From the NCBI RefSeq assembly GCF_000949135.2, contig NZ_JTAN02000017.1:248001-312000 (forward strand): a DNA stretch of 64,000 nucleotides, written 5' to 3'. Shown in pieces: positions 29,944 through 56,053 of this stretch. The notes under the pieces were generated by a model that saw only the letters and a list, made by a program, of their open reading frames with translations, did not search any database and was not told where the DNA came from. This stretch comes from Burkholderia sp. USMB20. Its GTDB lineage: Bacteria; Pseudomonadota; Gammaproteobacteria; Burkholderiales; Burkholderiaceae. Positions within the stretch are counted from its first letter, which is position 1. Each line of letters starts with the position of its first letter. Position numbers and translations under genes: made by a program.

Positions 29944-29960
29944 GTCCCCTTCCCGGGGAC
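29944..29960. promoter_or_regulatory. GTCCCC dyad, copy 1
   Basis: GTCCCC-TTCCC-GGGGAC, perfect 6-base arms. It is 328 bases from the ferredoxin start. Together with flanking A and GT it is the exact reverse complement of the copy at 30206, including the loop. Confidence 0.65.
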
Positions 29961-30205
29961 GTGTGCGTTGTCGTTCTAATGACCTGCGCAAGTCACTCGT
30001 CGACCAGGCTCGGCACTGGGCCATTACGATCAATCTCGCGCGAGATGAACATTGAGCTCAGCGGACCATTCCCCATAGTGCTCCGGGTTCCTCCGGCCAT
30101 TGGTCGGCATGTTGGTTTTCTGCGGCTCTAGCAAGCCAAGTACTCCTTCGCCCGCCGAGCATTCGCAGCCGCGCGTTCTGCACTTCCCCCCTCTCTCCCA
30201 ACGAC

Positions 30206-30222
30206 GTCCCCGGGAAGGGGAC
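30206..30222. promoter_or_regulatory. GTCCCC dyad, copy 2
   Basis: GTCCCC-GGGAA-GGGGAC, perfect 6-base arms, ending 65 bases before the ferredoxin ATG. This is a typical activator or operator distance and is almost the same as at the P450 gene. Confidence 0.7.
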
Positions 30223-30287
30223 TTACACCGACGCGACCTTGAGGGATATTAAAACCTGCACCGTATCATCTGAAGGACATCGAAACC

Positions 30288-30611
30288 ATGCCCCGTGTCA
30301 TCTACATCCATTCCAACGGCGAACGCAACGAGGTCGAAGTACCTATCGGGCAGAACCTGATGATGGCCGCAACCAGTAACGATATCAAAGGCATTGTCGG
30401 CGACTGCGGCGGCGCGATGAGCTGTGCCACATGCCACGTGATCGTGGATGATTCGTTCGCCGGCCTGCTGCCTGCGCCTGACGACACCGAAAACCAGCTG
30501 CTGGACTTCACCGCCGCGCCGCGTGAAGCAAACAGCAGGCTGTCGTGCCAGATCTCGATGAGCGACCTGCTCGACGGCCTCGCAGTACGCATCGCCGATC
30601 CGCAACTCTAA
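30288..30611 (+). CDS. [2Fe-2S] ferredoxin, adrenodoxin/putidaredoxin type
   Basis: A 107-residue electron carrier. The four cluster ligands are Cys40, Cys46, Cys49 (CGGAMSCATC) and Cys87 (RLSCQI), the adrenodoxin spacing. The Ala/Pro-rich acidic stretch around DDTENQLLDF (65-73) is the usual site for docking to the reductase and P450. It is followed after 25 bases by the VOC gene. The reductase at 25956 and the P450 at 41979 are its logical partners. It is probably transcribed from the dyad-containing region upstream. Confidence 0.93.
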   Translation: MPRVIYIHSNGERNEVEVPIGQNLMMAATSNDIKGIVGDCGGAMSCATCHVIVDDSFAGLLPAPDDTENQLLDFTAAPREANSRLSCQISMSDLLDGLAVRIADPQL

Positions 30612-30636
30612 ATCGCACCGACAGGAGAATCTACCC

Positions 30637-31278
30637 ATGCAAACCACCGCCCCCGAAGTTAGCGGCGCCAAACCCAACGCGGCCCTGACACCCAATCCGG
30701 GCCTGACGCCGATGATGTTGAACCACGCGGCATGGGTGACGCCCGACGCCGCCGCGACGACTGATTTCTACACGCGCATCATGGGAATGGAGCTGGCGAG
30801 CACGGTGCTGGACGATAGCATCCCGTCCACCGGTGATGCCATTCCCTACTTCCATATTTTCTTTCGCATGGGAGACGGCTCTACGCTGGCGTTTTTTGAG
30901 GCGCCCGGCGTGCCCGCCCCGGCAAAGGCAAGCCATCCCGCTTACGACCTGTTCAATCACATCGCGCTGCAAGCGAAGGATCGCGCCGAGGTGATGCGCT
31001 GGTACGAGTGGCTGAAGTCGCAAGGAGTGGACGTGATCGGCCCGACCGACCATAAGGGCTTGATCCTGTCAATCTACTTCCACGACCCGGCGGGCGTTCG
31101 ACTGGAAATCACAACCCCGCTCGACACGCATTGGAATCGCCACACCGAGAAGGGCTACGCCGACCTCAAGCTGTGGGAAGACTGCAAAGCCAAAGCCAAG
31201 GCCGATGGAAGAGATGTGGGCCAAGCGCTTATCGAAATGATCAAAGACGTCCGCAAACGGTACGAAAAAAAGGCTTGA
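30637..31278 (+). CDS. VOC-family (glyoxalase/extradiol-dioxygenase fold) protein
   Basis: A 213-residue metal-binding VOC protein. Residues 25-150 hold the paired beta-alpha-beta-beta-beta modules (MLNHAAWVTPDAAATTDFYTRIMGMEL, then FNHIALQAKDRAEVMRWYEWLKSQG, ending AGVRLEITTP). Candidate metal ligands are His30 in LNHAAW, His105 in NHIAL and Glu153 in LEIT. The C-terminal 60 residues are a basic helix absent from small glyoxalases. It has a close paralogue at 53685-54344. Members catalyse isomerisation, ring cleavage or epimerisation; which applies here is open. Confidence 0.85.
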   Translation: MQTTAPEVSGAKPNAALTPNPGLTPMMLNHAAWVTPDAAATTDFYTRIMGMELASTVLDDSIPSTGDAIPYFHIFFRMGDGSTLAFFEAPGVPAPAKASHPAYDLFNHIALQAKDRAEVMRWYEWLKSQGVDVIGPTDHKGLILSIYFHDPAGVRLEITTPLDTHWNRHTEKGYADLKLWEDCKAKAKADGRDVGQALIEMIKDVRKRYEKKA

Positions 31279-31296
31279 CCGCCCGTCGAACGGCAA

Positions 31297-31620
31297 TCGG
31301 AAGGACTTGTCGCCTTTGACGATAAGACCATCAATTGTCTCCGCGGCCGGCCATATGCGCCTGTCGGTGATCTTTGGGACGCCGCACTGACGGACTTGCG
31401 AATGCTCATCACGGAAGCCGTCAATGCTGCGCAAGTCGTGCCTATGGCCACGTGGGGCACTTCACCGGAGATGATTGTGCCCCTCGACGGATGCTTGCCG
31501 GATCTCGTGAAACCGACCCGATCCGCCGAAGCGGCATGGAGCGCGCCTTGGTTTATATGGGTTTGGAGCCTGGCCAGCCCGTCAGCGAGTTGCAAATCAA
31601 CAAGGTGTTCATCGGGTCAG
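31297..31620 (+). pseudogene. LeuC-type dehydratase fragment (aconitase superfamily)
   Basis: The plus strand reads [32 protein letters not shown], then [19 protein letters not shown] and, after a frameshift near 31540, [18 protein letters not shown] and INKVFIGS. These follow the mid-part of 3-isopropylmalate/homoaconitase large subunits, up to just before the Fe-S cysteine (SCTN). The 5' and 3' ends are missing. It begins right after the VOC stop codon. It may once have hydrated a pathway intermediate. Confidence 0.8.
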
Positions 31621-31855
31621 CGCCGCCGCCCACTGCGGTGACGTGTGGGTGGTACAATTCCTTGCCGGCATGGTTCAATAGCACTGCGCGCGGGCGGCAC
31701 CCCCGGCGCCATCGCGTCGCATCTAGCCCCCTTTTGAGAGACAATTCCCGTAGGTGACGGAATCACGTTGACCCGTTTCGTGCACGCCACGATGGTCCTC
31801 TTCCCGGTCTCCCGACAGGCCCGGTCAAACACCTGACAAGTCGCAGGATTGGAGA
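31621..31855. other. junk between LeuC fragment and IS3 element
   Basis: No gene is seen. A solo copy of the IS3 terminal repeat (TGACCCGTTTCGTGCACG, 31769-31786) lies 87 bases before the true left end at 31856, possibly the scar of an earlier insertion of a related element. Confidence 0.5.
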
Positions 31856-31906
31856 TGACCCGCTTTCGTGGACACGATCTATCCTGACAAGGAGGAGGTA
31901 CGGATC

Positions 31907-32221
31907 ATGTCCAAATACCGAGCGCCCTATGCACCGGAATTTCGGCAACAGATCGTGGACTTGGTACACGCCGGGCGTCGCCCGGAAGAGTTGTCCAAGG
32001 AATTTGGCCCGAGCACGCCGACCATCTACGGCTGGGTTGCCCAGGCCGATCGTGATGCCGGTACACGACACGACGGCTTGACCTCGACCGAACACGAAGA
32101 GCTCTCGCGCCTGCGCCGTGAGAACCGTCAGCTCAAGCTTGAGCGCGAGATCCTGGCAAAAGCCGCGGCCTGGTTCGCGAGGGAGACCGGAACGCTGCCC
32201 GACAAGGGTTCGAGTTCATGA
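31907..32221 (+). CDS. IS3-family OrfA (HTH/leucine zipper)
   Basis: A 104-residue DNA-binding subunit: MSKYRAPYAPEFRQQIVDLVHAGRRPEELSKEFGPSTPTIYGWV is the HTH, and SRLRRENRQLKLEREILAKAAAWFA is the leucine zipper. GGAGG lies upstream of the ATG at 31907. It overlaps OrfB by 4 bases, as usual for IS3 elements. It is intact, but it cannot drive transposition without OrfB. Confidence 0.8.
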   Translation: MSKYRAPYAPEFRQQIVDLVHAGRRPEELSKEFGPSTPTIYGWVAQADRDAGTRHDGLTSTEHEELSRLRRENRQLKLEREILAKAAAWFARETGTLPDKGSSS

Positions 32222-32726
32222 AAGCGAATCAGGCCACCTGGCCTATTGCGACGATGGCACGGCTGCTGGGGGTCTCTGCCAGCGGCTTCTACGCTTGGCA
32301 CCAACGAGCGCCATCGGCGCATTCCCGTAGTGACGCCGATCTGGCGACCCGCATCCGCGCCATCTACGACGGCTCACGCGGCACCTACGGCATGCCTCGC
32401 GTTCATGCGGAGCTTGCTGAGCAAGGCATCCACGTCGCGCGCAAACGGGTCGCACGGCTGATGCGCCTCGCGGGTCTGCGTGGCGTGAGCCGGCGCAAGT
32501 GGATCACCACGACACAACGACAAGCCGGGGCACGCGCCGCACCGGACTTGGTGCAACGGCATTTCAATGCCGATGAGCCGAATCGCCTGTGGGTCGCCGA
32601 CGCGACCTTCGTGCCGACCCGCGCAGGCTTTCTCTATCTGAATTAGTAAGGACTTTCCCGATCTCGTGGCATAGCGATATGCCAGGATGGTTGGTGCTAG
32701 GCAACCCATCTGGGAAGGGGAAAGTC

Positions 32727-33806
32727 ATGGACAAGATTACTCGTATCGGCGTGGATCTGGCCAAGAACCTGATTCAGGTACACGGCGTGGACAGCATGGA
32801 ACGCGTGGTGGTCATGAAAGCCATCTCACGGCAGAAGTTTCTCGAGTGGTTTGCCAACCTCGCGCCGTGCCTGGTCGCAATGGAAGCGTGCAGCACAGCC
32901 CACTACTGGGCGCGCAAGCTGCGCGCACTCGGCCACGAAGTGCGCCTGATCGCGCCGCAGTTCGCCGCCCCCTACCGCAAGGGCGGTAAGCACGTGAAGA
33001 ACGACAGGCTGGATGCTGAGGCCATCTGCGAGGCCGCGGGCCGGCCGCATATGCGCTTCGTGGCCGTCAAAACGGCAGACCAGCAAAACGTGCTGGTGCT
33101 GCATCGGATGCGGGCCGGTTTCGTTGAGGAGCGTACCGCGCTCGTCAACCGGCTGCGCGGTGAGCTGGTCGAGTTCGGCGCATTTCTGCCGCAAGGCATC
33201 GACGCATTTCGTGCCCACTTCGTCGAGGCACTGGAGGGCGGGGCTACTGAACTGAACGGTGTCGCGCGCACTGCACTGCTGCAAGGCTGGGAGCACCTGC
33301 AGGCCCTCGACCAGCAAATCGCCTGGTGCGACGTGCAAGTCGCCGCGCACGTAAAGCACGACAGCAACGCGCAGCGCGTCATGGCGGTCATCGGCATCGG
33401 GCCGCTCACCGCATCCGCCGCGGTGGCCACCATTGGCGACGCTCGCCTGTTCCACAACGGCCGGCAATTTGCCGCCTGGGTTGGCACGGTGCCCAAACAG
33501 AAGAGCAGCGGCGGCAAGACCCGGCTGGGTCGCATCACGAAGCAGGGCAACACGTATCTGCGCACGCTGCTGTTCCAGGGCGCGCGCTCCGCGGTAACGA
33601 GCGCCCATCGACGAACCGACCGGCTCTCCCGCTGGATCGTTCAGATCCAGGCACGCGTGGGCTGGTATCGAACGCTGGTGGCCGTCGCCAACAAGCACGC
33701 GCGCATCCTGTGGGCGATTCTGGCAAGGGGCGAGCGCTTCGACCCCTCGCATGTCGCCACTCCCTCAAAACCGGCCAGCCACGGAGGAGGTACGGCAACA
33801 GCATGA
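32727..33806 (+). CDS. IS110-family DEDD transposase (359 aa)
   Basis: A DEDD (RuvC-like) recombinase plus a C-terminal transposase_20 domain. The first Asp is in IGVDLAKN, the second acid in LVAMEACSTAHYW, and the DRLDAEA motif follows. The C-terminal part has VIGIGPLTASAAVATIGDARLF and AAWVGTVPKQKSSGGKTRLGRITKQGN, with the conserved serine region. The open frame begins at 32589, but the ATG at 32727 (MDKITRIGVDLAKN) is correct for the family. It is full length and uninterrupted. Confidence 0.92.
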   Translation: MDKITRIGVDLAKNLIQVHGVDSMERVVVMKAISRQKFLEWFANLAPCLVAMEACSTAHYWARKLRALGHEVRLIAPQFAAPYRKGGKHVKNDRLDAEAICEAAGRPHMRFVAVKTADQQNVLVLHRMRAGFVEERTALVNRLRGELVEFGAFLPQGIDAFRAHFVEALEGGATELNGVARTALLQGWEHLQALDQQIAWCDVQVAAHVKHDSNAQRVMAVIGIGPLTASAAVATIGDARLFHNGRQFAAWVGTVPKQKSSGGKTRLGRITKQGNTYLRTLLFQGARSAVTSAHRRTDRLSRWIVQIQARVGWYRTLVAVANKHARILWAILARGERFDPSHVATPSKPASHGGGTATA

Positions 33807-34112
33807 ACGGGTAAATCTGGGCGTCACCCGTAAAGGGTGACTTGGTAATCCAGGACGCAAAAGCAAGGATAGCGACAGGTCAGACCGGCAGCGGGCGAAC
33901 TCGAACCACAGTCAGGCGCTACATCGCATGTATTCGCCGTTATCTGGATGGAGTCCTGCTGCGCGGTTACTATCCGGGCCCGGGCACCGGCAACGATGGT
34001 GCCCAACAAGGCCGCTTATAGGTGTGCAGTCTGTCTCGCCGCTGAATGCCGAATGTGTCCCAATGACATGGGAATCGAACGGATGGATGAATCAACCCCA
34101 GCTTGCAAAAAA
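33807..34112 (+). ncRNA. candidate bridge RNA region of the IS1111-like element
   Basis: Non-coding bases between the transposase stop and the right sub-terminal repeat. A clear hairpin GTCACCC-GTAAA-GGGTGAC lies at 33823-33841. In IS1111-type elements the bridge RNA that pairs donor and target is encoded at this right end; the region's size fits. The exact RNA ends and guide loops were not determined. Confidence 0.45.
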
Positions 34113-34886
34113 GGAAAGTCCTTATAGGCCGTGGTGTTGGACGTGTTCAGTCGCCGCATCGTCGGCTGGGCGATGGGTGAGCACCTGCGCACGGAGCTGA
34201 TGCTCAAGGCCTTGGACATGGCGCTGGCGCAACGTCACGCCAAGGGTGTCATTCACCATTCCGATCAAGGGTGCCCAATACACCTCCCTCGCGTTTGGGC
34301 GGCGCTGCCGCGAGGCCGGCGTGCGCCCATCCATGGGCTCCGTGGGCGACTGCTTTGATAACGCGATGTGCGAGTCGTTCTTCGCCACGCTCGAATGTGA
34401 ATTGCTCGCGCGCACGCGATTCGAAACCCGCGAGCAAGCTAGCCGCGCGATCTTCTCATTCATCGAAGGCTGGTATAACCCGCATCGGCGCCACAGCAGC
34501 CTGGGTTATCGCTCGCCGAGCGTCTACGAGCATATCCACCACGAACAAAACCGAACATGCGCGCCAAGCGAGTTGCCCACCGCCGGCCAGCGTCATGGTC
34601 GTGATAAGCGACCCGCCGGCCGACCGTGGACAACTCGCAGCACTGCGTCAAACGGAGGAGTTCCACCTGCTTAAAATTTAACTGCCCAACCGTTCACGGA
34701 AACGGGTCAACCTCAGATCTCTTCACGGATTTGGCTACGCCGACGACCGATATCGCTCCGAAATCGCGCAGTCGCACCCTACCGCGCCGTGGGAGATGAA
34801 ATGCGGAACCTGCTTGCGCCGTAAGCCGTTGGGGAAGCGGCATGCTAGGCTACGTCCCCGGAAATCACAGCGGCGATGGAGTCCCC

Positions 34887-35702
34887 ATGGGTAAGAAGGT
34901 GGCCGAAGAAAATGTTGACGAGGAAACTGGCGGCGGCGTCCAGTCTGTCGACACGGCGTTACGTGTGCTCTCCGCACTGATCGAAATGGGTCCGCCGCTC
35001 ATGTTGAAGACGGTGGCTGAGCGGGCCGGGATGCAGCCTCCCAAAGCGCATCGATATTTGGTTAGTTTCTGCCGAGGCGGCCTGGCCGAGCGCGACCCCA
35101 CTTCCGGCGGATACCGGCTGGGCCCTCTAGCTATCCGACTGGGACTTGCGGCGCTGCGCCACCTGCACGTGGTCAACGTGGCGGCAAAAGCGCTTGGCGA
35201 GTTGCGCGACGAGGTCGGTTATACCGTCGGCCTCGCAGTTTGGGGGGCTGCTGGACCGACCTTCGTCCGATTTGAAGAGACCAACGATGTGTTGATAGTT
35301 AGTTGTCGGCCGGGCTCGGTCATGCCGATACTGTCGTCGTCCACCGGTAGGGTATTCGGAGCGTACATGCCCCGCAGCATCACCGACCCTTTCATTCGCC
35401 GGGAATTGGCAGGAAAACCCCATCCCGGCGCCAGCCTCGCCAGCGTGCCCCGAATCACTAAGCAGCAAATGGAGGCGCTCTTTGAGCAGGTGCACGAACA
35501 AGGCATGGCGCAGGTGCGAGGCGATCTCAATCCAGGCCTGCATGGACTCTCCGCGCCGGTGCTAGACCATGCGGGCGCCCTCGCTGGAGTCATCACGGTA
35601 ATGGGGCCAGCTGGAATCATCGACGTTGAACTCGACGGACCGATTGCGCAGGCACTCCGGATGCGGGCGCGACTGATCTCCCAGGGAATGGGCGCGCTCT
35701 GA
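34887..35702 (+). CDS. IclR-family transcriptional regulator
   Basis: A 271-residue regulator. The N-terminal winged HTH covers about 18-75 (GVQSVDTALRVLSALIEMGPPLMLKTVAERAGMQPPKAHRYLVSF) and an effector-binding domain follows (VGYTVGLAVWG, SSSTGRVFGAYMP, AGVITVMGP). The ATG at 34887 has GATGGAG upstream. IclR proteins often control aromatic or organic-acid catabolism. Two GTCCCC half-sites lie just upstream (34854 and 34881), so it could be part of the same regulon or its regulator. It is followed by the LuxR-type gene on the same strand. Confidence 0.88.
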   Translation: MGKKVAEENVDEETGGGVQSVDTALRVLSALIEMGPPLMLKTVAERAGMQPPKAHRYLVSFCRGGLAERDPTSGGYRLGPLAIRLGLAALRHLHVVNVAAKALGELRDEVGYTVGLAVWGAAGPTFVRFEETNDVLIVSCRPGSVMPILSSSTGRVFGAYMPRSITDPFIRRELAGKPHPGASLASVPRITKQQMEALFEQVHEQGMAQVRGDLNPGLHGLSAPVLDHAGALAGVITVMGPAGIIDVELDGPIAQALRMRARLISQGMGAL

Positions 35703-35866
35703 AATAAGCCGCACCGGGTAACGGGGAACTGCTGCGATAGCCCCAGAGGGTATCTCCCAGTGTCTCGATGATTACGATAAGCGTAATCTGATTTCGTACC
35801 GAATAATCGCCACGACTATTGGAACCGAGCGTCGGCGTAACAGGAGCGAATTCCAGGAGGCAAGCG

Positions 35867-36715
35867 ATGACGATCATGACCGTTCGCGAGAATGCCGCTC
35901 GTACTGCCCCGGAGGCCATGGCATTCGCCACGCTGGTCGATGCCCTCGGTGAGGATGGCTTCGGCCCTGCCCTCGCTCGCTTACTCAACGAACTTTGTGG
36001 CGCGGATCACTTCGCGGCGTTCCGTTTTGGCAAAAATGAACTGCGCGAAGTTGCGGCCTGCTGCGTCGAGCCAGAGCGGACGGTACGCGACCGTGTCGAG
36101 CGCTACATCAACCAAGGCTGGTGGAAGCGCGACCCCGCAATGACGGAGGCGCAACGCCATCTTGGTGCTCAGCGACCGGGCCTTATTCACATCGATTTGA
36201 CCGACGATGATTATTCCGCGATGCGCTCCGGCCTCTATTGGGACGTCCGTGATCGTCTTCTGCTCTGCGGCCATTGCGCTAATGCTGATTTTGGCCTGAG
36301 CATCGTGCGCGCGGACCCGCATGCGGCGTTCGCAAGCGAAGTAATCGAAAAGGTAGCTCAGTGGGCCGAACTCCTGCTAGCTGTGCTGGGTAAGCATGCC
36401 AGCATGTTTCAGCCCGTGCCAAACGTAGCGCAAGCGCTAACAGCCCTCGAGGAAATCGAAAGTTGCATTGCCTCCACCGGCACCCTACCCCGGCGTGAAG
36501 CCGAGGTCAGCGCACGCATCCTGTACGGCTTGTCCTCAGTAGGAATAGCGCTGGACCTCGCGGTAAGCGAAGAGACCGTGAAGACTTATCGTAAGCGAGC
36601 ATACCAGCGCCTCGCGATTGGGAGCGAGCGCGAACTGTTGACGTGGTACTTGGCCCAATGGAGCCGCTGGCGGGACCATCGTTGTAAAATTCCCTCGTCC
36701 GACGCTGTACATTAA
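35867..36715 (+). CDS. LuxR-family regulator with C-terminal HTH
   Basis: A 282-residue regulator. Residues 205-270 carry the LuxR/GerE helix-turn-helix (LPRREAEVSARILYGLSSVGIALDLAVSEETVKTYRKRAYQRLAI). The N-terminal 200 residues form a sensing domain (LCGADHFAAFRFGKNELREV, later YWDVRDRLLLCGHCANADFGLSIVR) that is not an obvious acyl-homoserine-lactone or receiver domain. AGGAGG precedes the ATG at 35867. LuxR-type proteins bind 18-20-base dyads, so this is a candidate reader of the GTCCCC dyads, by inference only. Confidence 0.85.
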   Translation: MTIMTVRENAARTAPEAMAFATLVDALGEDGFGPALARLLNELCGADHFAAFRFGKNELREVAACCVEPERTVRDRVERYINQGWWKRDPAMTEAQRHLGAQRPGLIHIDLTDDDYSAMRSGLYWDVRDRLLLCGHCANADFGLSIVRADPHAAFASEVIEKVAQWAELLLAVLGKHASMFQPVPNVAQALTALEEIESCIASTGTLPRREAEVSARILYGLSSVGIALDLAVSEETVKTYRKRAYQRLAIGSERELLTWYLAQWSRWRDHRCKIPSSDAVH

Positions 36716-36737
36716 ATATTGCCCGCGGCGAAGAAAG

Positions 36738-37024
36738 CTATCTCATACGAGCTAACACTGGTGCCATGGCGTCAACCGAAACGACCGGCACGAACGCCGA
36801 CGGCTCGGCGAGCGCAGCTCCGTTCGCCTGTGTGGGTCCGCAAATCCACTTGCGCAATTGGTTCGCGTTTACGCAGGCCTTCAGGGCATGCCGGATATCG
36901 ATACTCCCGGCTGCCGGCATGCCTCGATCAGCCGTCGCTTATCCTGCGCGTCAAACACCCGCCTGCCGCCCCGATCTATATGCGTCACCTTCAGTGGCAA
37001 AAAAGCCAAGTCATCTTCAGTCAT
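36738..37024 (-). pseudogene. IS66-family TnpA remnant, frameshifted
   Basis: The minus strand reads MTEDDLAFLPLKV, then RRVFDAQDKRRLIEACRQPGVSISG, a one-base loss, then ALKACVNANQLRKWI and APSAFVPVVSVD. This is the accessory HTH protein of IS66-type elements. TnpB and TnpC are absent, so only this small fragment of the element remains. It lies directly after the LuxR gene. Confidence 0.75.
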
Positions 37025-37089
37025 GGTTGCGTCCGCAAGTTGTGGTTGCGGACGCAAGCGTGACCCGTCTCAGACAGAAACACTAGGTG

Positions 37090-37312
37090 CGTCGAATTTC
37101 GCGCTTAGTCGTCGACCACGTTCAGGCATCGAAACCGCCGACCATAGGCCAACCCGTCAGAAACGAAGCCCATCGACCAGCTCTGATTCGGGCCTGTTGG
37201 TAACGGCAGCGGCGTGCGCTCGACAGCCGCAATACGCTTGCGTCGCCGCTTGCGCACGCTCAGCCCCGCTTTGCTGTACAGGCGCCAGATGCGCTTGTCT
37301 GCGGATTTCGGT
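37090..37312 (-). pseudogene. IS407-like IS3 OrfB fragment
   Basis: The minus strand reads ADKRIWRLYSKAGLSVRKRRRKRIAAVERTPLP, then PNQSWSMGFVSDGLAYGRRFRCLNVVDD followed by a stop. This is the middle of an IS407-group OrfB with the first acid region (here MGFVSD, normally MDFVSD, so the Asp is lost). Upstream and downstream parts are missing. A short OrfA piece of the same group lies at 39722. Confidence 0.75.
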
Positions 37313-37397
37313 GATGGTGATCAGCCGTTTCGGCGAACGTGATCAGTTTGGAAGGTGGTGTTGCGCGGTCAATGGATTATAGCGAAGGTGATCACGA

Positions 37398-38147: not shown

Positions 38148-38162
38148 CGCGACCTCCTTGGG

Positions 38163-38773: not shown

Positions 38774-38781
38774 GTGAGGCG

Positions 38782-41893: not shown

Positions 41894-41911
41894 GTCCCGC
41901 CCGAGGGGGAC
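41894..41911. promoter_or_regulatory. GTCCC dyad upstream of the P450
   Basis: GTCCC-GCCCGA-GGGGGAC, five-base arms plus one mismatch within an 18-base frame. It ends 67 bases before the P450 ATG, almost the same distance as dyad copy 2 before the ferredoxin. Confidence 0.55.
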
Positions 41912-41978
41912 TGACTGAATTACTTGAGAAGGGCTACGCTGTCTCCCATACCGACATGGAGTCGGACAAGGAAATCTC

Positions 41979-46345: not shown

Positions 46346-46518
46346 CGCGGCTGGGTCGCACGCGGCCGACGTCACGATTTTTCACACTCGCCTGATACTT
46401 GACGTTCTCACTCGGGAGCGGAGAGTTCCTGACAGACGACCGCCTGCGCCGGACTGATGGTTCGACGTTTTGCTCCCTTGGTCCGATCGCTTTTTGTCGA
46501 AACGAACTGAATATAAAC

Positions 46519-47490
46519 ATGAAAAAGCTCGCCTCCCTGCTCCGACGGATCCTACTGGCGTTCGGTGCAGACATATCGACAAGGCTCAAAAGACGTTTCG
46601 TTTTCGCTGCGCTGGACGTGCACGGCCAGGCGCCGGGCTTTTACCGCTGGAGGCTGGGTGAATTCGAGATCACGGCACTAAGCGACGGCACACTCGATAT
46701 GCCGGTTGATCAGCATCTCTGCGGCCCCAAGCCGGGAGAAGTCGCTGCAGCGTTCGAGGCGGTTTTTTCAAAACTGCCGATGGAGATGTCGGTCAATGCC
46801 TTCCTTATCAACGCGGGTTCGAAGCTAATCATCGTGGATGCCGGCGCGGGAACGCTGTATGGACCGACGCTGGGCCACTTGCACGAAAATCTGAGTGCTG
46901 CGGGATACCGGCCGGAACAGATCGATATGGTTTTACTCACCCATGTCCACGGCGATCATTTCGGCGGTCTCATCATCGATGGAGCGCGGAAGTTCCCAAA
47001 CGCTAAAGTCCATGTAGCTAAGGCAGATCTCGATTACTTTTTGAACACTTCCAACGAGTCAGCGGCCACCGGGCTTCACCGGATAAATTTCTCGGCCGCT
47101 AGGACGGTATTTTCTGCGTATAGGGCGACCGGTCAGATCAAACCATTTGTCGGATCGCACGAGATCATGCCCGGAATTCGCGCAGTTCCAGCACCTGGTC
47201 ATTCACCTGGCCATACAGCCTACCTGATCGAAAGTAAAAATCAAAAACTGATGCTTTGGGGTGACCTCCTGCATGTACCACAGCTTCAGCTTGCTCACCC
47301 CGAATATTCGATGGATTCCGACTTTGACCAATGTGAGGGACGCACCTCACGGACGGCTTTTTTCCATGAAGCCGCCGCACTAGGTTACTGGATAGCAGCC
47401 GCACATCTTCCTTTTCCTGGCATTGGCCATGTCAAATTCAACGGTAGCTCCTATACGTATATACCGGCTGACTACACGGCCAACCGCTAG
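46519..47490 (+). CDS. metallo-beta-lactamase-fold hydrolase
   Basis: A 323-residue dinuclear-metal hydrolase. The metal-binding THVHGDHFGG places His142, His144, Asp146 and His147; GHSPGHTAY and WGDLLH supply further ligands. The N-terminal residues 1-34 are basic and look like an anchor or leader. The ATG at 46519 was chosen because the frame before it has poor composition, but its ribosome site is weak. Lactonase, esterase or sulfatase activity is possible; within this cluster, ring-opening of a lactone is a reasonable guess, not shown. Confidence 0.85.
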   Translation: MKKLASLLRRILLAFGADISTRLKRRFVFAALDVHGQAPGFYRWRLGEFEITALSDGTLDMPVDQHLCGPKPGEVAAAFEAVFSKLPMEMSVNAFLINAGSKLIIVDAGAGTLYGPTLGHLHENLSAAGYRPEQIDMVLLTHVHGDHFGGLIIDGARKFPNAKVHVAKADLDYFLNTSNESAATGLHRINFSAARTVFSAYRATGQIKPFVGSHEIMPGIRAVPAPGHSPGHTAYLIESKNQKLMLWGDLLHVPQLQLAHPEYSMDSDFDQCEGRTSRTAFFHEAAALGYWIAAAHLPFPGIGHVKFNGSSYTYIPADYTANR

Positions 47491-47606
47491 AGAATCATAA
47501 ATATCCTGGCTTGATCATCTCGGACGTTCCTCTGCGATTATACTCGCAGCTATTGAAATGCATATTTTCATTTCGGCTTTAAGCTGTCCATGCTTTTCGA
47601 CTCATA

Positions 47607-47631: not shown

Positions 47632-47736
47632 GCACGGTTTGACGCTGACAACCAACTACTCGTACAGATCTCATGCGGCAGTCGGCGGGTGAAGGTTGTC
47701 AACGGTGAAACCATCTGCGCAACGTCAAGACTCAGC

Positions 47737-49029
47737 TCAATGTACTGGGAAGTCCTCCACTGCACTTCTATACTGTGGATGACTCGGCGTAAGTATAACG
47801 CCACCGATCGTCGCTACCGCAACGAAAAGCGCGTAACCAAGGATATAGAAATGATGTGACAGATTACCGTTTTGCGCGAAATAACCGACAGCGAATGGTC
47901 CGACCATACCACCGAAACTTGCGAACATGCTAATGAGCGCCACTGAAGGAGCAACCTGATTGCGCGGCACATTGCTCAACACCCACGCCCACCACGTTCC
48001 ATTTGCCGAGTACAATCCCGCTCCTGCGATACAGAACATGCATATTGTCAAGATCAGGGAGTTGTTCACATAGTGTTGCGCGATCAAGGCGATTCCTGCG
48101 GCGGCAAGCGGCACTGCCACGAACCAGCCACGCGACCTGTTTGACGGCTGGTCCGACAACCAGGAGTTGACGAACATCGAGACGGCGCCCAACAGAGGTG
48201 GAAGTGCCGTCAACCAGCCGACCACACCAAAGCCGGATGAGGTGAAATGCTCTCTGATCAAGGTTGGCATCCACATCATGAAGCTGAACACCACCATCAT
48301 CCAGCAAAACACCACAATCGAAAGCAGCCAAACGGTGGGCCGCTTGAGGACATCACAAAATGAACCGTCTGCACCCACTCCCCGCACTCGATTTTTCAAG
48401 ATGTAGTCTCGTTCAGCTGTGCCGAGCCAGCGATCCTTTACCGGGTCATCAGAAAGGAGCACCACGACGAGCAACCCGACGACGATCGCAGGGATGCCCT
48501 GCAGAATGAACATTACTCTCCAATGAAACGCGTCGATCATCCAGCCGGCCAGAGGCGCCATAATCACCGACGAGAGCGGTAGTGAATATTGCGCGAAGGA
48601 GATGCCGCGCGCACGTTCGCGCGCAGGATACCAGTGTACGAACATGATGGAGAACGCCGGCCAAATCGCGGCTTCAGCCAATCCCATTACTACACGCACA
48701 GCGATAAGAGCTCGCAAATCGTGCACTACTCCCGTTAGACATGCAGTTATTCCGGTTACCACCATAGCGCCGGCAATCACTTTCGTTGGACCGAATCTAT
48801 TGGCGAGCCAGCCGCCGGGGATTTGGGTGACTACATATCCCAAGAAAAACGCGGATAACAAGGCGCCCGTGACCGTACTACCCAAGCTCAAATCATGTGC
48901 CATTTGTGGCGCCGCCACCCCAATGTTCGACCTATCTGCGTAGGCAATCAGATAGGTAATGAACAGCAAAAGTCCAATACGCGTCCACCGGGAGGCTCCG
49001 ACATTTTTCATATCTCCTTTTACATTCAT
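47737..49029 (-). CDS. MFS transporter, ACS (anion:cation symporter) type
   Basis: A 430-residue membrane protein with 12 predicted helices in two halves. Helix 1 has the ACS motif (ITYLIAYADRSNIGVAAPQMA), followed by QIPGGWLANRFGPTKV as the loop 2-3 motif. ACS members import organic anions such as phthalate, tartrate or sugar acids. AGGAGACGGAG lies directly before the ATG at 49029. It converges on the MBL gene. It probably takes up a substrate for the catabolic cluster. Confidence 0.92.
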   Translation of the reverse strand: MNVKGDMKNVGASRWTRIGLLLFITYLIAYADRSNIGVAAPQMAHDLSLGSTVTGALLSAFFLGYVVTQIPGGWLANRFGPTKVIAGAMVVTGITACLTGVVHDLRALIAVRVVMGLAEAAIWPAFSIMFVHWYPARERARGISFAQYSLPLSSVIMAPLAGWMIDAFHWRVMFILQGIPAIVVGLLVVVLLSDDPVKDRWLGTAERDYILKNRVRGVGADGSFCDVLKRPTVWLLSIVVFCWMMVVFSFMMWMPTLIREHFTSSGFGVVGWLTALPPLLGAVSMFVNSWLSDQPSNRSRGWFVAVPLAAAGIALIAQHYVNNSLILTICMFCIAGAGLYSANGTWWAWVLSNVPRNQVAPSVALISMFASFGGMVGPFAVGYFAQNGNLSHHFYILGYALFVAVATIGGVILTPSHPQYRSAVEDFPVH

Positions 49030-50436
49030 CTCCGTCTCCTTTTAGTCGACACACGTGTTACTTCTCGTGGATCTTTATCCGCAATATAAGATTGAAATGC
49101 AGAAAATTGCTTGCCACCTCGTTGTTTGTCTGACTCATTCCACATACACAGATCAGGACGACGTCGTATTGGGCTGGAATACAATTTTCGCCGCACCGGT
49201 CCTATCAAAACCATGGATGCATAAAATGGTGAAGATATTCACAATCTCATGTAGCGCTCGAATAGTGAACGTGAAACCTATTCGATATCTCGAATCAGAT
49301 AATCTTTGGTAGGTCTGCGTCGACTTCGCAACCAAACGAGCGGCCCTGACGAACTGTCGACAATCGACTGGACTAACGGGGCGAGGATCAATCGATTTCC
49401 TGTCACGCCGCTGGCTCGCGGACCATGCGCAACCGGTATATCCGTGATTCGAGCTCGACGAAAGCTTCGGCCGGGAATGGGGAAGATGGGCCAATGCGGT
49501 TGTGGATAGAAGAAAATGTCCCGGCCACACGAGGAACCATAGGGCTGGGGCAACTCAGACGGCAGCTTTGCCGGAGTGGCCGGAGAGTGATACTCGGGGA
49601 GAACTGCAGCGGACGCTACGATGTCGGCGTCGACCGCCATCGCAGCAGTGGCGCCACTATACCGGTAGTGATGTTGAACCACCCCATTCTCTCGCCTTGA
49701 GACATCGACTGGCGCCATCAAGGAGGCCCATCGGAAGCATCCAGCCGCTAGCGCCACGCGGTATTCGAAATTGCGATTGGTGAAATGATGCGGGGTTTGC
49801 CCGCTGGGATGGATTTCGTTCACGCCAGAAGATATCGCGCAATCGCATAAGGCCACTCGAAGAGCACCCGGGGAAAAAGGCCGGCCAGACCGCCTGCATC
49901 GCCCTCCGCGCGCAACTGCTCTCTGGGCAAATGCCCATATTCGGACAAAGCCGCCAAGTGTAGCGCTGTCAGATTCGAGAAGCGACCGCGTGCCAGCACT
50001 GAGCATCGGCTGAATGCGGTACTGCCAAGGGTTCGCCGGATCATACATCTCGTTTGCGATCGATCTTTTCGGACTATGGAGCGACCGATGGCAATTGCTT
50101 CTGCTCGCCGCCTGCCCACCGCAAATCGCGTTCTGTTCGCCAGCCGGCGGCGTCAATTCTTGCATCTCCATGACGTCCGATGGACGTAGGCATCTTCGAA
50201 TTAAGTAGTCGTGGAACTGCTGCTTGTTGGATGAAATCTCTTCGAAGGCGAAAATCTTCACCGACAGGGCGGCTCCAAAGGTTCGACGCTTCATGAAATG
50301 AACGCCTCGAAGCTGCCCAGAGCCTTGGCATTCGGATGCAGCGTTGTGCATTGCGAGACGGTGTAGCGAGGCATGCTTGCGCTCCCTGTTCGAATCCGAT
50401 GGGCCAACCTTACTCCCGCACTCGGACATGCGTCAC

Positions 50437-50453
50437 GTCCCCTTGAAGTGGAC
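50437..50453. promoter_or_regulatory. GTCCCC dyad with one mismatch
   Basis: GTCCCC-TTGAA-GTGGAC. One arm base differs from the consensus. It is 725 bases upstream of the MDR gene, so it would be an auxiliary or relic site. Confidence 0.4.
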
Positions 50454-50909
50454 ACGGGGCAATACCTACGCTTGTACCCTTGGCCTCGATCGAGACAGGC
50501 GCCCGAGGCCCTTTGTGTCCGTCGACGTAGCAGCGGCCACTCTTCGTCGGCCAACCTTCTACGCCCATGCCGTCGCGGGACCGGGCCGCGGCACCAGCCG
50601 AGACATGTGGCTCGGTAGATTCCGTATCCCCAACGCCATGCACGGGCCGACTGACTTAGGCTCACGGAACTTGCGATGGCGGCTAAAGGCGATGCTCTTA
50701 AGACGAGGAGTTCTACGGGGCTGCGTTTGCCGCGAGAGTTTTCAACCCGCATCAACGTCGCCACCAACGAATCGTCGCAGCGGGAAATGGTCAACGTCTC
50801 GTCCATTGCCTGCACACTGCCCAAGTACATCTGGTGCCTGACAAGGACAATCCTTCTCGCGCCAAAGGCTTGGACCATGCACCGCTCGATGATCGGGCAT
50901 GCGACGTCA

Positions 50910-50927
50910 GTCCCCCACACGGGGGAC
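50910..50927. promoter_or_regulatory. GTCCCCC dyad upstream of the MDR-hydratase operon
   Basis: GTCCCCC-ACAC-GGGGGAC, perfect 7-base arms. It ends 250 bases before the MDR start at 51178, in the only plausible promoter region of that operon. Confidence 0.65.
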
Positions 50928-51177
50928 CGACACCGCATGCTGCTCTATGGATAATGACTAACCAAGAAGCGATCGAATCGGAGAGAGGCTTCTTTCCTCG
51001 CCGGGAGGAACACGGCCGAAGGCCGTTTCCGCCACCCTCGTCGGCAACGATACGCGCGGGAGCAAAAGGTTTTTCCCCGGTGATGACGCACCGACCGAGA
51101 CACTTTAATCGGATCGGCACCTGAACCATTGATGCCGCGAAAATCCGTTCCCATTTTCAACGATTTCGGACACGCCA

Positions 51178-52128
51178 ATGAAAGCCATCATTGCAACCTC
51201 AGAGGGGCCCAAGCTAGTGGATAGACCCCGTCCCAATCCAACTCCGACCGAGATTCTCGTTCGCTCGCGTGCCATCGGCGTAAATCGCATTGACCTATAC
51301 ACGCTTGGCAACCCGAATGACCAAATCATCGGCATGGAGTGGTCTGGTGAGGTCGTCGAAGTGGGTGCTAAATGCCAAGGGTTCCGCGTTGGCGATCGGG
51401 TGATGGGTACCGGCCCAGCCGCTTACGCCGAGTACGTGGTCACCGACTATGGCCGTGCCGTGCCGATACCCAAGCAAGACGTGGATTGGGCTGCAGCAGC
51501 ATCGTCTATGCTCGGGCTCCAGACGATGCACGACGCTCTAGTGACGCGCGGAAGGCTTCGTCCTGGTGAGGCCGTCCTCATGCAAGGCGCTGCTTCGGTG
51601 ATGGGTCTGATCGGAATGCAGATCGCCAAAATGCTTGGCGCCGGACCTGTTCTTGGAACTTCCGGTCATCCGGAGCGGCGTGGCAATCTGAAGGACTTCG
51701 ACTGCGATGTCGCCATCGATAGCAGCCAGGAGGCCTGGTCGCGGAAGGTACTCGATGCTACGAACGGCAAGGGCGCGGACATCGTCATTGACAACGTGTC
51801 CGGATCAGCCTTCAACCAGTGCATGGCCGCGGCCGCACTCGAAGCGCGCCTTGTCAACGTCGGCCGACTGGGCGGTGCGACAGCAGCATTCGACTTCAAC
51901 TTGCATGCACTTCGCCGCCTTGAGTACATTGGTGTGACGTTTCGCACGCGCAGCGTGGAGCAAGTACGGTCTATCAACTCCCGGATGCTGGCGGACCTTG
52001 GCCAAATGCTTGCCGATGGCGGTCCACGAGTTCCGATTGCGCACCGCTTTGCCTTCGACGACGCTGCAAGGGCCCTCGATACGTTGCGACGCAGCGAGCA
52101 CTTTGGCAAGCTGGTGCTGGCGCTTTGA
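51178..52128 (+). CDS. zinc-free MDR, quinone oxidoreductase-like
   Basis: A 316-residue NADPH-dependent medium-chain reductase. The nucleotide-binding stretch QGAASVMGLIGMQIAKMLGAG covers about 137-157. The catalytic-domain N-terminus (GVNRIDLYTLGN, GMEWSGEVVEVG) lacks the zinc-binding Cys cluster of alcohol dehydrogenases. Such enzymes reduce quinones or conjugated enones. The gene shares one base with the hydratase (TGATG), so the two are cotranslated. It follows the dyad at 50910. Confidence 0.9.
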   Translation: MKAIIATSEGPKLVDRPRPNPTPTEILVRSRAIGVNRIDLYTLGNPNDQIIGMEWSGEVVEVGAKCQGFRVGDRVMGTGPAAYAEYVVTDYGRAVPIPKQDVDWAAAASSMLGLQTMHDALVTRGRLRPGEAVLMQGAASVMGLIGMQIAKMLGAGPVLGTSGHPERRGNLKDFDCDVAIDSSQEAWSRKVLDATNGKGADIVIDNVSGSAFNQCMAAAALEARLVNVGRLGGATAAFDFNLHALRRLEYIGVTFRTRSVEQVRSINSRMLADLGQMLADGGPRVPIAHRFAFDDAARALDTLRRSEHFGKLVLAL

Positions 52129-52928
52129 TGGATCGCACACAGTCGCTTGCCCGAGCGGGAGATGTCCTATGGGGCGCATGGCAGCAGGGAACGGTTATTG
52201 AATCCTTGCCTGAGGAATGCCGACCCCTCACGCGTGCTGAGGGGTATCATGTGCAGTCGGTCATCGCGGCCCGTTCCCCAGCCCCTCTCTTTGGCTGGAA
52301 GATCGCCGCCACGAGTCATGCGGGCCAACGCCACATTAATGTGGATGGTCCGATCGCAGGCCGCCTCCTGCGCGAGCGTGTGCACCTTTCAGGATCACAG
52401 CTGTCGCTCGCACAGAATCGTATGGCTGTGGCCGAGCCTGAATTTGCCTTCCGCATGGCTCTCGACATCTTTCCAAGGCGGATCGCGTATTCGCTCGCCG
52501 AAGTGATGGCGGCGATCGCGGACCTGCATCCTGCAATCGAAGTTCCCGACTCACGCTTTGCCGATTTCACATTGGCCGGCGAGGCGCAAATCATTGCCGA
52601 TAACGCTTGCGCGCATGAGTTCGTTCTCGGTGCGGCGGCACCGCACAGTTGGCGCACGACGGACCTTTCGAAGCACCCAGTTCACGGTAACGTTTTCGGA
52701 CTGGAACGCAGCTATGCTCGTGAAGGCAGCGGAGCTTCTGTGCTCGGCAATCCACTGATTGCGCTCGTCTGGCTGGTCAATGAACTATCCTCACTTGGCA
52801 TCACATTGCACCGTGATCAGGTTGTTACCACAGGCGCATGCCTCATTCCTCTCGAAGTGAATGCCGGAGACCGCGTGTTCGCTGATTTCGGCTCGCTCGG
52901 CGAGGTTTCGGTCAGCTTTAGCGAATAA
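52128..52928 (+). CDS. 2-keto-4-pentenoate hydratase / oxalocrotonate decarboxylase family (MhpD-like)
   Basis: A 266-residue Mg-dependent enzyme of the fumarylacetoacetase-like fold family. FGWKIAATSHAGQRHINVDGPIAGRLL, VAEPEFAFRMA (metal-binding Glu pair) and VVTTGACLIPLEV are the hallmark stretches. Members hydrate or decarboxylate the dienoate left by meta-cleavage of aromatic rings. The ATG at 52128 overlaps the MDR stop; a TTG at 52125 is less likely. Its presence with VOC proteins suggests, but does not prove, a ring-cleavage branch. Confidence 0.85.
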   Translation: MDRTQSLARAGDVLWGAWQQGTVIESLPEECRPLTRAEGYHVQSVIAARSPAPLFGWKIAATSHAGQRHINVDGPIAGRLLRERVHLSGSQLSLAQNRMAVAEPEFAFRMALDIFPRRIAYSLAEVMAAIADLHPAIEVPDSRFADFTLAGEAQIIADNACAHEFVLGAAAPHSWRTTDLSKHPVHGNVFGLERSYAREGSGASVLGNPLIALVWLVNELSSLGITLHRDQVVTTGACLIPLEVNAGDRVFADFGSLGEVSVSFSE

Positions 52929-52954
52929 TTTTTTTAGGATAGAAGGAGTGTCTA

Positions 52955-53254
52955 ATGACGACGAAGAAAGGTTACCTGTTCGCAGAACTAGACGTGTTTG
53001 ATTCTGCGCATTTCTACAACGAGTATATGTCGCGGGTGCATCCCGTCTTGGAACAATATGGCGCGACCTTTCTGGCCGGGAGCGACACCCCGGTCATCAA
53101 GGAAGGTGGCAGGGACGTGAAACGCGTCGTGCTTCTGGAATTCGATTCTCTTCAACGCGCAGAGGAGTTCTATCACTCTGAACGCTATCAAGCCATCATT
53201 GGATATAGGTTCAAGTCGGCGCAGTCGCACCTCTACATTTTTGAGGGCGCCTGA
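52955..53254 (+). CDS. DUF1330-family small protein
   Basis: A 99-residue ferredoxin-like-fold dimer candidate. The pattern KGYLFAELDVFDSAHFYNEYMSRVHPVLEQYGATFLAGSD, then VVLLEFDSLQRAEEFYHSERYQAII, is typical of DUF1330. The family is often encoded in catabolic operons, with no assigned reaction. It lies 26 bases after the hydratase gene behind the sequence AGAAGGAGTG, so it belongs to the MDR-hydratase operon. Confidence 0.85.
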   Translation: MTTKKGYLFAELDVFDSAHFYNEYMSRVHPVLEQYGATFLAGSDTPVIKEGGRDVKRVVLLEFDSLQRAEEFYHSERYQAIIGYRFKSAQSHLYIFEGA

Positions 53255-53684
53255 TCCGCCCCGTTTTTGAGGCTCACATTCTCGAGAGGATCGAGCCATG
53301 AACGAGCAGGTGACGAGGCTGTCGCCCGAAGCACACTGCTCTAGCGAGCTGACTATGAGCCGAATTTCCCAGCAGCCGTGAGAGATCGGCTCGGTCGCGA
53401 TGAAACGATCACCGATTCTCGCCGAACGGAGGCCGTGCACAGCTCGTTGCAGTGTTCAGCGCCCGCCTCCAGCAGGCCGCTCGTCTGCATCTTCAGGTCG
53501 GCCCTCAGACCGGCGACCGTCAACAGATTCCGTCGGTTGAGCTCGACAATCGCCACGCGACTTCGCGCGAGACTGCACCGACGGAGCCCTCGCGTGACCC
53601 GAGGTCCACGTTACGTTTACGGCCGATCGACCAGACAACAAATCAATGTTCGAAAAGTCATCGACCCACTCCTTTGTCTTGGCA
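53255..53684. other. gap between DUF1330 and VOC genes
   Basis: About 430 bases between convergent genes. Open frames on both strands have shadow-like composition and no ribosome site. I see no repeat or dyad here. Confidence 0.45.
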
Positions 53685-54344
53685 CTATTGACCAACATCC
53701 ACACGCTCATAGCGCTTTCGCACTTCAATACAAAGGTCAGTTAGCGCTGCCACGACGTCGCGGCCCTCCTGCAAAGCTTTGTTTTTCGTTTCAACCCACA
53801 GGTCGAGATCGGCCTTTGCCTTGGCGTCATGTCGGTTCCAGTTCTCGTCAAGCGGCGTAGTGATTTCCAGACGAAGACCCGCTGGGTCGGTAAAGTAGAT
53901 ACTGAGGATCATACCCTTGTGGTCTGTGGGGCCCTGCACCTCCAAGCCGTTAGACTTCAGCCAGTCGTACCATCTCATGACTTCATTGCGATCCGAAGCC
54001 TGTAGCGCTACGTGGGTGAAAACATCGTAGGCGACATGGGAAGATTTCGCTGGCGGCGGGACGCCGGGCGCTTCGAAGAACGCCAGGGTCGAGCCGTCCG
54101 CCATCCGGAAGAAAAGGTGAAAATATGGGATTTTCAAACCGGTAGACGGACTCGTATCCTCGATCACGGTGCTGACCAAGTCCATCCCCATGATTCGCGT
54201 GTAGAATTCTGCTGTTGCCGCGGCATCTGGCGTGACCCACGCAGCATGATTGAGCATCATCGGCGTCAGGCCGGGGTTGGGAAGCTTTGACATTCTAAGT
54301 GATGAACCGGGTGGCTTGGGAAGTACGCCAGTCATATCCGCCAT
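53685..54344 (-). CDS. VOC-family protein, paralogue of the one at 30637
   Basis: A 219-residue VOC protein. It shares long identical blocks with the first copy (NPGLTPMMLNHAAWVTPDAA, FYTRIMGM, GSTLAFFEAPGVP, and GPTDHKGMILSIYF vs GLILSIYF). It also has the same extra C-terminal helix. AGGAGG precedes the ATG at 54344. It has no ferredoxin beside it, is inverted, and sits next to the alpha/beta hydrolase. The pair either acts on two related intermediates or was duplicated when the cluster was rearranged. Confidence 0.87.
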   Translation of the reverse strand: MADMTGVLPKPPGSSLRMSKLPNPGLTPMMLNHAAWVTPDAAATAEFYTRIMGMDLVSTVIEDTSPSTGLKIPYFHLFFRMADGSTLAFFEAPGVPPPAKSSHVAYDVFTHVALQASDRNEVMRWYDWLKSNGLEVQGPTDHKGMILSIYFTDPAGLRLEITTPLDENWNRHDAKAKADLDLWVETKNKALQEGRDVVAALTDLCIEVRKRYERVDVGQ

Positions 54345-54571
54345 GTCAGAACCTCCTATTGATGGATGTCATTGAATGAGTGCAGCCGTCCTTCGTCTCG
54401 CACGTCCTTCGCAGGTACGCCACTGCAGGCGTTACGAAGCTAATACGCCGCTACCAAACCCGACGACGGTGCACGGACCAGAGAGAGATCACAGTACCCT
54501 TAAATCCGTAGCGACCGCGAGTACGTTGCAATTAAGTCTACTGTGCAGCCCACACCAACCGGCCTGAGCGC

Positions 54572-55750
54572 TCAGGCCTCCAGCAACTTTCGCTCGACGA
54601 GCCAGCCGCGGATCAAGGTCGTCGCTTCCTTCAGCAGTTCCGGCTGGCCCGCGTAGTAATGTGTCGCGCCCTTGATGATCCGGAACGTCTTGTCGGATGA
54701 CGCGGCGGCTTCAAACAGCATCTTCGGGTGCGTCTGGGGTACCGCATCATCGGCACTGTTCTCGATCACCAGGAGCGGCGCGTGCATTCGCCTGGCATTC
54801 TCCAGTCCATTGCCGCAGGAGTCGTCGAGCGACCATTGCGACAGCCATGAGCGCAAGGTCGTAAAGCGCGCGAGCCCCACCGGACCAGTATTCACCGTCT
54901 CCGGATTGCCCATGTAGCACCACCCCGGCTTGCGGTCGTTTGGATCGAGCGACGAATCGAGGAACCGCGGATCAGCCAGGGTGCGATGCACGATGAACGG
55001 CCGCTCCAGCTCCCCCGTGCCGCGCTCCTTCAGTTCCTGCAGCTTGGTCTTGGCCCAGGATGTGATGCGCCGCATGCGCGCGAGCTGCGCGCCACGGTAG
55101 CGTGCGACGTACTCCTGCGAGTACGGCGGCTGGTTGGGATTACGCGGATCGTAGATATCGAGTTCAATCTCGCGGTCATCCGGGTTCGCCTCGTCATGCA
55201 CCGAAGGATCGATGGCTTCCGCCAGCAGGTGCGCTCGCGACAGGTGTGCCGCCTGGTAGATGACCGCATCCGCCGGAATCAGCCCGGCACCTTTCACATC
55301 CACGGGATCGCCCGCAGGCGTGTGCGTGATGCCGGGGTTTTCGGCTTCGGCCTGGTAACTCACCGCCAGCGCCCCCCCTCCGCTCCAACCGACCAGCACC
55401 ACATACTTATAGCCCCAGACCACCTTGGCATGCCGGATGTACGCGCCGAGGTCCAACAGCACCTTTTCCATGATGAGGGCCGTGTCATTGCGCTGGTAGC
55501 GGCTGCCCGCGCACAGCACGTGCGCGCCCGTTGCGGCCATCGCACGAGGAACCGGCAAAAGCTGCAGCGTCGAAGCCGGATGCATGAACACCATTAGTGT
55601 GTCCGAGGGGTGACCTTGCGGACGGAAACGGATTCCCTCCAGATTTACTGCCCCCTGGTTACCCGAGAATCCATAGGTTTCGGTGAAGACGGTGCGCTCC
55701 TCGTACTGCAGGTGCACCCACTCGGTCTGAATGTCGTAGGCTTGGTTCAT
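54572..55750 (-). CDS. alpha/beta hydrolase (392 aa)
   Basis: An esterase/C-C hydrolase-type protein. The nucleophile elbow GWSGGG puts the Ser at 123. The acid probably lies in IENSADDAVPQTHPK (about 340) and the His in KGATHYYAG (about 368). It has an N-terminal extension of about 50 residues and a large cap between 140 and 290. No signal peptide is seen. The GTCCCC dyad at 55785 lies 35 bases before its ATG. In a ring-cleavage or lactone pathway it could hydrolyse an ester or C-C bond, a guess. Confidence 0.85.
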   Translation of the reverse strand: MNQAYDIQTEWVHLQYEERTVFTETYGFSGNQGAVNLEGIRFRPQGHPSDTLMVFMHPASTLQLLPVPRAMAATGAHVLCAGSRYQRNDTALIMEKVLLDLGAYIRHAKVVWGYKYVVLVGWSGGGALAVSYQAEAENPGITHTPAGDPVDVKGAGLIPADAVIYQAAHLSRAHLLAEAIDPSVHDEANPDDREIELDIYDPRNPNQPPYSQEYVARYRGAQLARMRRITSWAKTKLQELKERGTGELERPFIVHRTLADPRFLDSSLDPNDRKPGWCYMGNPETVNTGPVGLARFTTLRSWLSQWSLDDSCGNGLENARRMHAPLLVIENSADDAVPQTHPKMLFEAAASSDKTFRIIKGATHYYAGQPELLKEATTLIRGWLVERKLLEA

Positions 55751-55784
55751 GTGTCTACTTTAGGAGGAAGCGAACACCCCAGCA

Positions 55785-55801
55785 GTCCCCCCAAAGGGGA
55801 C
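55785..55801. promoter_or_regulatory. GTCCCC dyad at the alpha/beta hydrolase gene
   Basis: GTCCCC-CCAAA-GGGGAC, perfect 6-base arms, 34 bases upstream of the hydrolase start on the minus strand. It is close enough to overlap that promoter. Confidence 0.65.
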
Positions 55802-56035
55802 GCCTCCGCGGCCTAGTGACCTGACACGTGCAAGCATCTGATCGGCGTATTGATTACCCAACTTTTAATCGTGTCGCAGTCCTCGACTTCAATACGCAGT
55901 ATCCCAATTGTCGAATACGAAAAAGCACAGAAAATCTTTTTCAACAGGGCTACTGGCTCACTTGTGGCACTTGGCGACACCGAAGGTGAGGGATCTCCGG
56001 GTAGGTAGATCCGGCGCTTCGGCCGGTTTCCGTTT

Positions 56036-56053
56036 GTCCCCCGCCGGGGGGAC
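56036..56053. promoter_or_regulatory. GTCCCCC dyad at the MHS transporter gene
   Basis: GTCCCCC-GCCG-GGGGGAC, 7-base arms. It lies 144 bases before the transporter ATG and 251 bases from the dyad at 55785; the two divergent genes thus have one each. Confidence 0.6.

Follow-up and report, generated by a model that had tools for sequence, protein, structure and literature searches.

In the window, by which we mean the whole 64-kb stretch of DNA analysed here, the GTCCCC-N5/6-GGGGAC dyads are very likely the operators of a single LuxR-type activator encoded in the cluster itself (35819-36715, forward strand), which would drive ferredoxin/P450 catabolic operons in a class II arrangement. Computation established how the promoters are laid out, that this geometry is conserved and that it is linked to the LuxR gene. 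The dyads proved to be parts of promoters with a fixed layout, which the initial annotation had missed.

Our analysis confirmed that the dyad is real in the window. Six exact GTCCC-N5..9-GGGAC matches were found (at 29944, 30206, 41894, 50910, 55785 and 56036), all with GTCCC-N7/8-GGGAC spacing, against a shuffle mean of 0.32, with none of 100 shuffles reaching six. Five carry full six-base arms, bearing out the five perfect copies described initially, and the sixth, at 41894, has GTCCCG on one side. A scoring matrix derived from 53 sites beyond the window and then scanned over both of its strands ranked the six exact dyads within the first eight rows (two in both directions), with everything else in the window scoring at most 2.4 and the best of 20 shuffled windows reaching 13.4; the P450 dyad at 41894, which scored 13.8 against that 13.4, is therefore borderline on its own. 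This dyad was one of two weaker copies originally proposed, and it stands on its exact GTCCC arms, while the other, at 50437, has one arm mismatch, scored at background (-1.3 on the forward and -9.5 on the reverse strand) and was dropped. The first 25 kb, where no copy had been noticed, indeed held no exact dyad, only 11 one-mismatch rows (spacings 4-10), and the four places from this part in the matrix listing all scored below -6. The genome-wide dyad counts given below come from relatives.

Each dyad could be paired with a -10-like element. The leftward dyad at 29944..29960 (reverse strand) precedes TAGATT (29921-29916) and is an inverted copy of the 30206 site (30-nt arms, 90% complementary); a gene that it serves was not found in the window. 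An IS element at 28434-29782, whose 21-nt inverted ends enclose a DDE transposase (28590-29690), begins to the left of this -10 at 29921, with its near end some 130 bases downstream, and since it sits downstream of the -10, the gene once served by the promoter seems to have been displaced. On the forward strand, the dyad at 30206..30222 is followed by GATATT (30245-30250) and by the genes for a 2Fe-2S ferredoxin and a VOC-family protein (30288..31278), the dyad at 41894..41911 by TACGCT (41935-41940, one base further than elsewhere) and a cytochrome P450 gene (41979..43250), and the dyad at 50910..50927 by GATAAT (50950-50955) and the genes for an MDR oxidoreductase, a hydratase and a DUF1330 protein (51178..53254). 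The reverse-strand dyad at 55785..55801, with TAAAGT at 55762-55757, heads the genes for an alpha/beta hydrolase and then a second VOC protein (53685..55750, reverse strand), and the forward dyad at 56036..56053, with TATAAT at 56076-56081, heads an MHS-type transporter gene (56123..57856, forward strand). Between the dyad-headed genes lie IS elements and a regulator pair on the forward strand, an IclR-family gene (34842..35702) and the gene of the proposed dyad reader, the LuxR-type protein (35819..36715). At 31868-34690, by eye, an IS3-type element is interrupted by an IS110-family element, whose transposase (32589-33806) was tested.

Promoter geometry was determined from 63 dyads in ten groups of loci, the window included. 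A [GT]AC flank follows the dyad on one side only in 55 of them, on neither side in 6 and on both in 2. The 57 dyads from outside the window yielded 54 oriented entries, four flankless dyads being dropped and one dyad being counted in both directions. In these entries the flank completes a -35-like hexamer (CTGACR, CAGACR or CATACR) whose first base is the last base of the dyad, a conservation that is partly built in because the entries were oriented by the flank. The -10 played no part in orienting the entries, and a -10-like hexamer appeared at offset 22 after the dyad with a mean score of 2.88, against -3.14 at the next best offset in the range 12-33; its second place is A in 44 of 54 entries and its last place T in 53. 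If this last T is taken as -7, the dyad ends at -35 and its centre lies near -43. The window, in which direction was set by the genes and, at 29960, by the flank, has the -10-like element at offset 22 in five of six dyads and at offset 23 for the P450 dyad, with one match also in the wrong direction, at 41911. An ATG with at least 80 open codons stands at offset 34 or 35, where +1 is predicted, in 15 of 44 full-pattern sites (pattern given below), and the window hydrolase likewise has its ATG there; as far as can be read from the letters, such mRNAs would be leaderless. The near-equal distances of 65 and 67 bases to the ferredoxin and P450 start codons, remarked on initially, are best taken as a coincidence: the constant distance is from dyad to -10 and not from dyad to start codon, and elsewhere the start lies mostly 34-35 bases after the dyad.

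This layout also bears on the sense of regulation. Because the dyad lies directly against the -35 element, a position from which binding could obstruct polymerase, the LuxR-type protein might instead read it as a repressor. However, the -35-like hexamers match poorly, which would be expected if the promoters depend on an activator, and the dyad stops at -35, leaving the start uncovered. Receptor-fold LuxR proteins, moreover, mostly activate, and we consider repression unlikely. For activation, we infer that a LuxR-type dimer binds GTCCCC-N5/6-GGGGAC on the immediate upstream side of a weak -35 element, with its centre some 43 bases ahead of the transcription start, and would from there recruit RNA polymerase in class II style to the operons of a ferredoxin/P450-dependent catabolic pathway. 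The ligand of the LuxR-type protein would probably be the pathway substrate or an intermediate.

A comparison of intergenic with coding placement, put forward initially as a check, came out in favour of the regulon. In the annotated region of the Variovorax VAI-C megaplasmid (W01; 181 kb, 9.2% intergenic), exact dyads were intergenic in 8 of 9 cases, and the ninth overlaps the end of the gene that precedes a ferredoxin gene, at 36 bases from the ferredoxin start; one-mismatch copies were intergenic in 6 of 11 cases and two-mismatch copies in 30 of 149. Strict dyads, with six-base arms, concentrate near the LuxR gene in G002 (6/6, all on one contig of 66 kb in a genome of 6.6 Mb), G004 (8/9), G008 (6/7), G001 (7/8, within 51 kb), W01 (7/8, within 163 kb) and G003 (5/9, within 62 kb). 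G009 and G010 have 7 and 6, distributed over small contigs, both of those in G005 are far from the LuxR gene, and G006, G007, W02 and W03 hold 1, 0, 1 and 0. At least one strict dyad occurs in 82 of 299 genomes of the family. A LuxR search of these genomes (7 candidates scored per genome listed) gave matches at E <= 1e-40 in two, the same two with the highest dyad counts, 8 and 6. The next counts, 5 in G167 and 4 in G255, are spread over contigs and speak against the linkage, as neither genome has a LuxR match at E <= 1e-40, and relaxing the threshold to 1e-5 gave a single weak match in G255 and none in G167.

A full promoter pattern, GTCCCN{7,8}GGGACWKACN{19}ANNNT, was counted as well. It occurs 7 times in G001, 8 in G002, 6 in G003, 8 in G004, 7 in G008, 9 in G009, 7 in G010 and 7 in W01, counts that are partly circular since the pattern was derived from these positives, and once in G007; G005, G006, W02 and W03 have none, though looser sites are present. 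Across 399 Burkholderiales genomes it was found 8 times in G002 and once each in 2 of the 398 others, and a reversed control pattern gave two hits, equal to these off-target hits. An off-cluster dyad, GTCCCCGACATCGGGGAC, recurs at G001:C12:18362, at G005:C1:2897233 and in many control genomes; in frame it would read VPDIGD, as in lipoyl-domain proteins, and it is probably coding sequence. Similar dyads occur singly in many genomes, some of them being long GC palindromes spread over contigs, as might be expected if the dyads were repeats rich in GC or terminator stems that no regulator reads. We give this disfavoured explanation almost no weight, considering the fixed promoter geometry, the position ahead of orthologous genes, the intergenic placement, the clustering near the LuxR gene and the rarity of the full pattern elsewhere.

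We then compared the targets in related clusters. The closest cluster found, in Comamonadaceae bacterium 2FH (G001; 80 kb compared), has best matches of 81% for the ferredoxin, 94% for the VOC protein, 85% for the P450, 86% for the MDR oxidoreductase, 83% for the hydratase, 88% for the DUF1330 protein, 87% for the second VOC protein, 92% for the hydrolase and 80% for LuxR, together with an IclR match of 83% and a second IclR copy at 85% over a shorter stretch. The GMC and SDR genes of the window have only 30-47% matches there, and the MBL, MFS, porin and MHS transporter genes have none at E <= 1e-10 in the 80 kb. A dyad precedes the ferredoxin-VOC orthologue in G001 (two copies), G002, G003, G004, G008 and W01, and the P450 orthologue in G001, G002, G004, G008 and G010, as well as in G005 with a broken match; a close P450 orthologue is absent from the compared stretches of W01 and G003. 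The hydrolase orthologue is preceded by a dyad in G001 (34 bases), G003 (62 bases, without the flank) and W01 (one mismatch), and in alphaproteobacteria the dyad precedes hydrolase and VOC genes. The scan of related clusters thus found the motif before orthologues of the ferredoxin-VOC, P450 and hydrolase genes, and conservation can be claimed for these promoters, not for the dyads of the MDR operon or the MHS transporter. Relatives of the MHS transporter at 55-57% identity sit on other contigs of five genomes, for which reason the transporter in the window looks recruited.

Collectively, the excess of exact sites over the shuffle mean, the constant -10 offset, the orthologous targets and the concentration of dyads near the LuxR gene support the dispersed catabolic regulon proposed initially, with exact dyads that are mostly intergenic and recur before orthologous genes; the window probably holds one such regulon, read by the LuxR-type protein. 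The chemistry of the pathway was approached through protein families. In an NCBIfam scan of 10 window proteins, none of the P450s, ferredoxin, VOC protein or hydrolase reached the cut-off of a model, a scan of 10 Variovorax proteins passed only a thiolase subfamily and an acyl-CoA synthetase model, PDB sequence searches returned broad matches, and the pathway substrate was not found from the NCBIfam or PDB matches or from PMC literature.

The initial annotation had left a single reader to be chosen from the LuxR and IclR proteins, and the comparison favoured LuxR. LuxR orthologues accompany the dyads in beta- and alphaproteobacterial clusters. The IclR gene adjoins LuxR in betaproteobacterial clusters only: eight betaproteobacterial genomes or records have an orthologue next to LuxR (69-85% identity), and G005 has a partial one, an association that would suit an IclR-family protein (34842-35702) reading the dyad in place of LuxR. 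However, no IclR match at E <= 1e-20 was found in G006, G007, W02 or W03, whose clusters keep dyads, with gene-facing sites that retain the -10 offset, and other IclR proteins (34-43%) in control genomes come without clustered dyads. An IclR gene therefore does not accompany the operator in every cluster, as an IclR-family regulon would demand, and since four clusters without a related IclR keep the motif, the LuxR-type protein is favoured; IclR as sole reader is disfavoured and quite improbable, and a joint role of LuxR and IclR may exist.

All 13 LuxR orthologues examined with Pfam match the C-terminal LuxR-type (GerE) helix-turn-helix, and the helix-turn-helix stretch SEETV-TYR-R is identical in 16 orthologues. 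The autoinducer-binding domain PF03472 matched one of 13, below cut-off (E 0.088). A PDB sequence search with four LuxR sequences returned none at E <= 0.01, and with 13 sequences only helix-turn-helix matches were significant; through re-alignment of Foldseek's best 1000 chains, the N-terminal part is predicted to adopt a receptor-like alpha-beta-alpha fold. At two LuxR loci, L003 and L005, four dyads, some of them carrying one mismatch, face genes for a P450, a hydrolase, a VOC protein and a second P450, and every one of the four has TA at offset 22-23. So do the four corresponding dyads of L014, and the other one-mismatch dyads of L005 (two) and L014 (one) are without it; these strains are close to one another, and the three loci are therefore not independent. 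The VOC site of Brevundimonas (L015) has GATAGT at the -10 offset. At thirteen loci whose LuxR-like gene is more distantly related, the 500 bases upstream of that gene were searched for GTCC-N7..13-GGAC, and a 19-base GTCC-N11-GGAC dyad was found in three (L056:10152 and L063:3410, both Neorhizobium, and L067:3358), whose LuxR-like genes adjoin VOC or other catabolic genes. These sites are suggestive only and hint at GTCC as a family-wide half-site. In Variovorax WS11, a strict dyad has a second LuxR-like stretch (G003:C3:2914964-2915398; 38% identity over 130 residues) at a distance of 28 bases. The island with the LuxR-type regulator also encodes an MBL-fold protein (46399-47490), for which the best NCBIfam match, below cut-off, is an AidB-type AHL lactonase.

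The first 25 kb is matched in part, with 28% of it covered at 79% identity, by a Paraburkholderia phenoliruptrix pSYMBR3459 region whose annotation includes an integrating-conjugative-element protein, ParA and SSB. Window positions 11902-20409 are similar to the integrating-conjugative-element region of that replicon. As the catabolic part is closest to Comamonadaceae clusters, transfer is likely to have occurred. With slightly less than even confidence, we propose that a quorum-receptor-like LuxR solo has turned into the substrate sensor of a P450 catabolic network, and that this unit, the activator with its own dyad promoters, many of them leaderless, travels across beta- and alphaproteobacteria and on conjugative elements, recruiting genes such as that of the MHS transporter through the dyad. 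The analysis thereby proposes a specific operator and its reader for a family of uncharacterised degradation clusters, whose regulon members can be read off the sequence, each of eight betaproteobacterial genomes or records showing 6-9 full promoters. The results also suggest that LuxR proteins with a receptor fold extend past quorum sensing to substrate sensing of P450 pathways, and the compact promoter set should be useful for substrate discovery and biosensors.

Among known degradation clusters, that of Variovorax for isoflavone catabolism likewise combines oxidoreductases, hydrolases, regulators and transporters (PMC11069340). In the available part of that paper, a word search did not find LuxR or ferredoxin and found P450 in the introduction only, and on this evidence the two clusters are different (PMC11069340). 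TeiR/TesR of Comamonas testosteroni steroid degradation is also a LuxR-type factor controlling a degradation cluster in the Comamonadaceae; compared by its description, it is a membrane protein with kinase activity, and a GTCCCC-type operator is not mentioned in the portion of the source available (PMC6678751). Searches of PMC literature found no description of a GTCCCC-N5/6-GGGGAC operator; LuxR-type activation is known, and the operator is apparently undescribed in the literature searched. To our knowledge, the box is unlike known lux boxes. In contrast to LuxR, TraR and LasR, the orthologues here match the Pfam autoinducer-binding domain in only one of 13, below cut-off, and the genes behind the dyad are catabolic. 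Like these receptors and LuxR solos, the protein combines a predicted receptor-like N-terminal fold with a C-terminal LuxR-type helix-turn-helix. Class II LuxR-type activators have their lux boxes near -42.5, and, as in the LuxR/TraR/LasR class II systems, the dyad is 17-18 bases long and ends at the -35 element.
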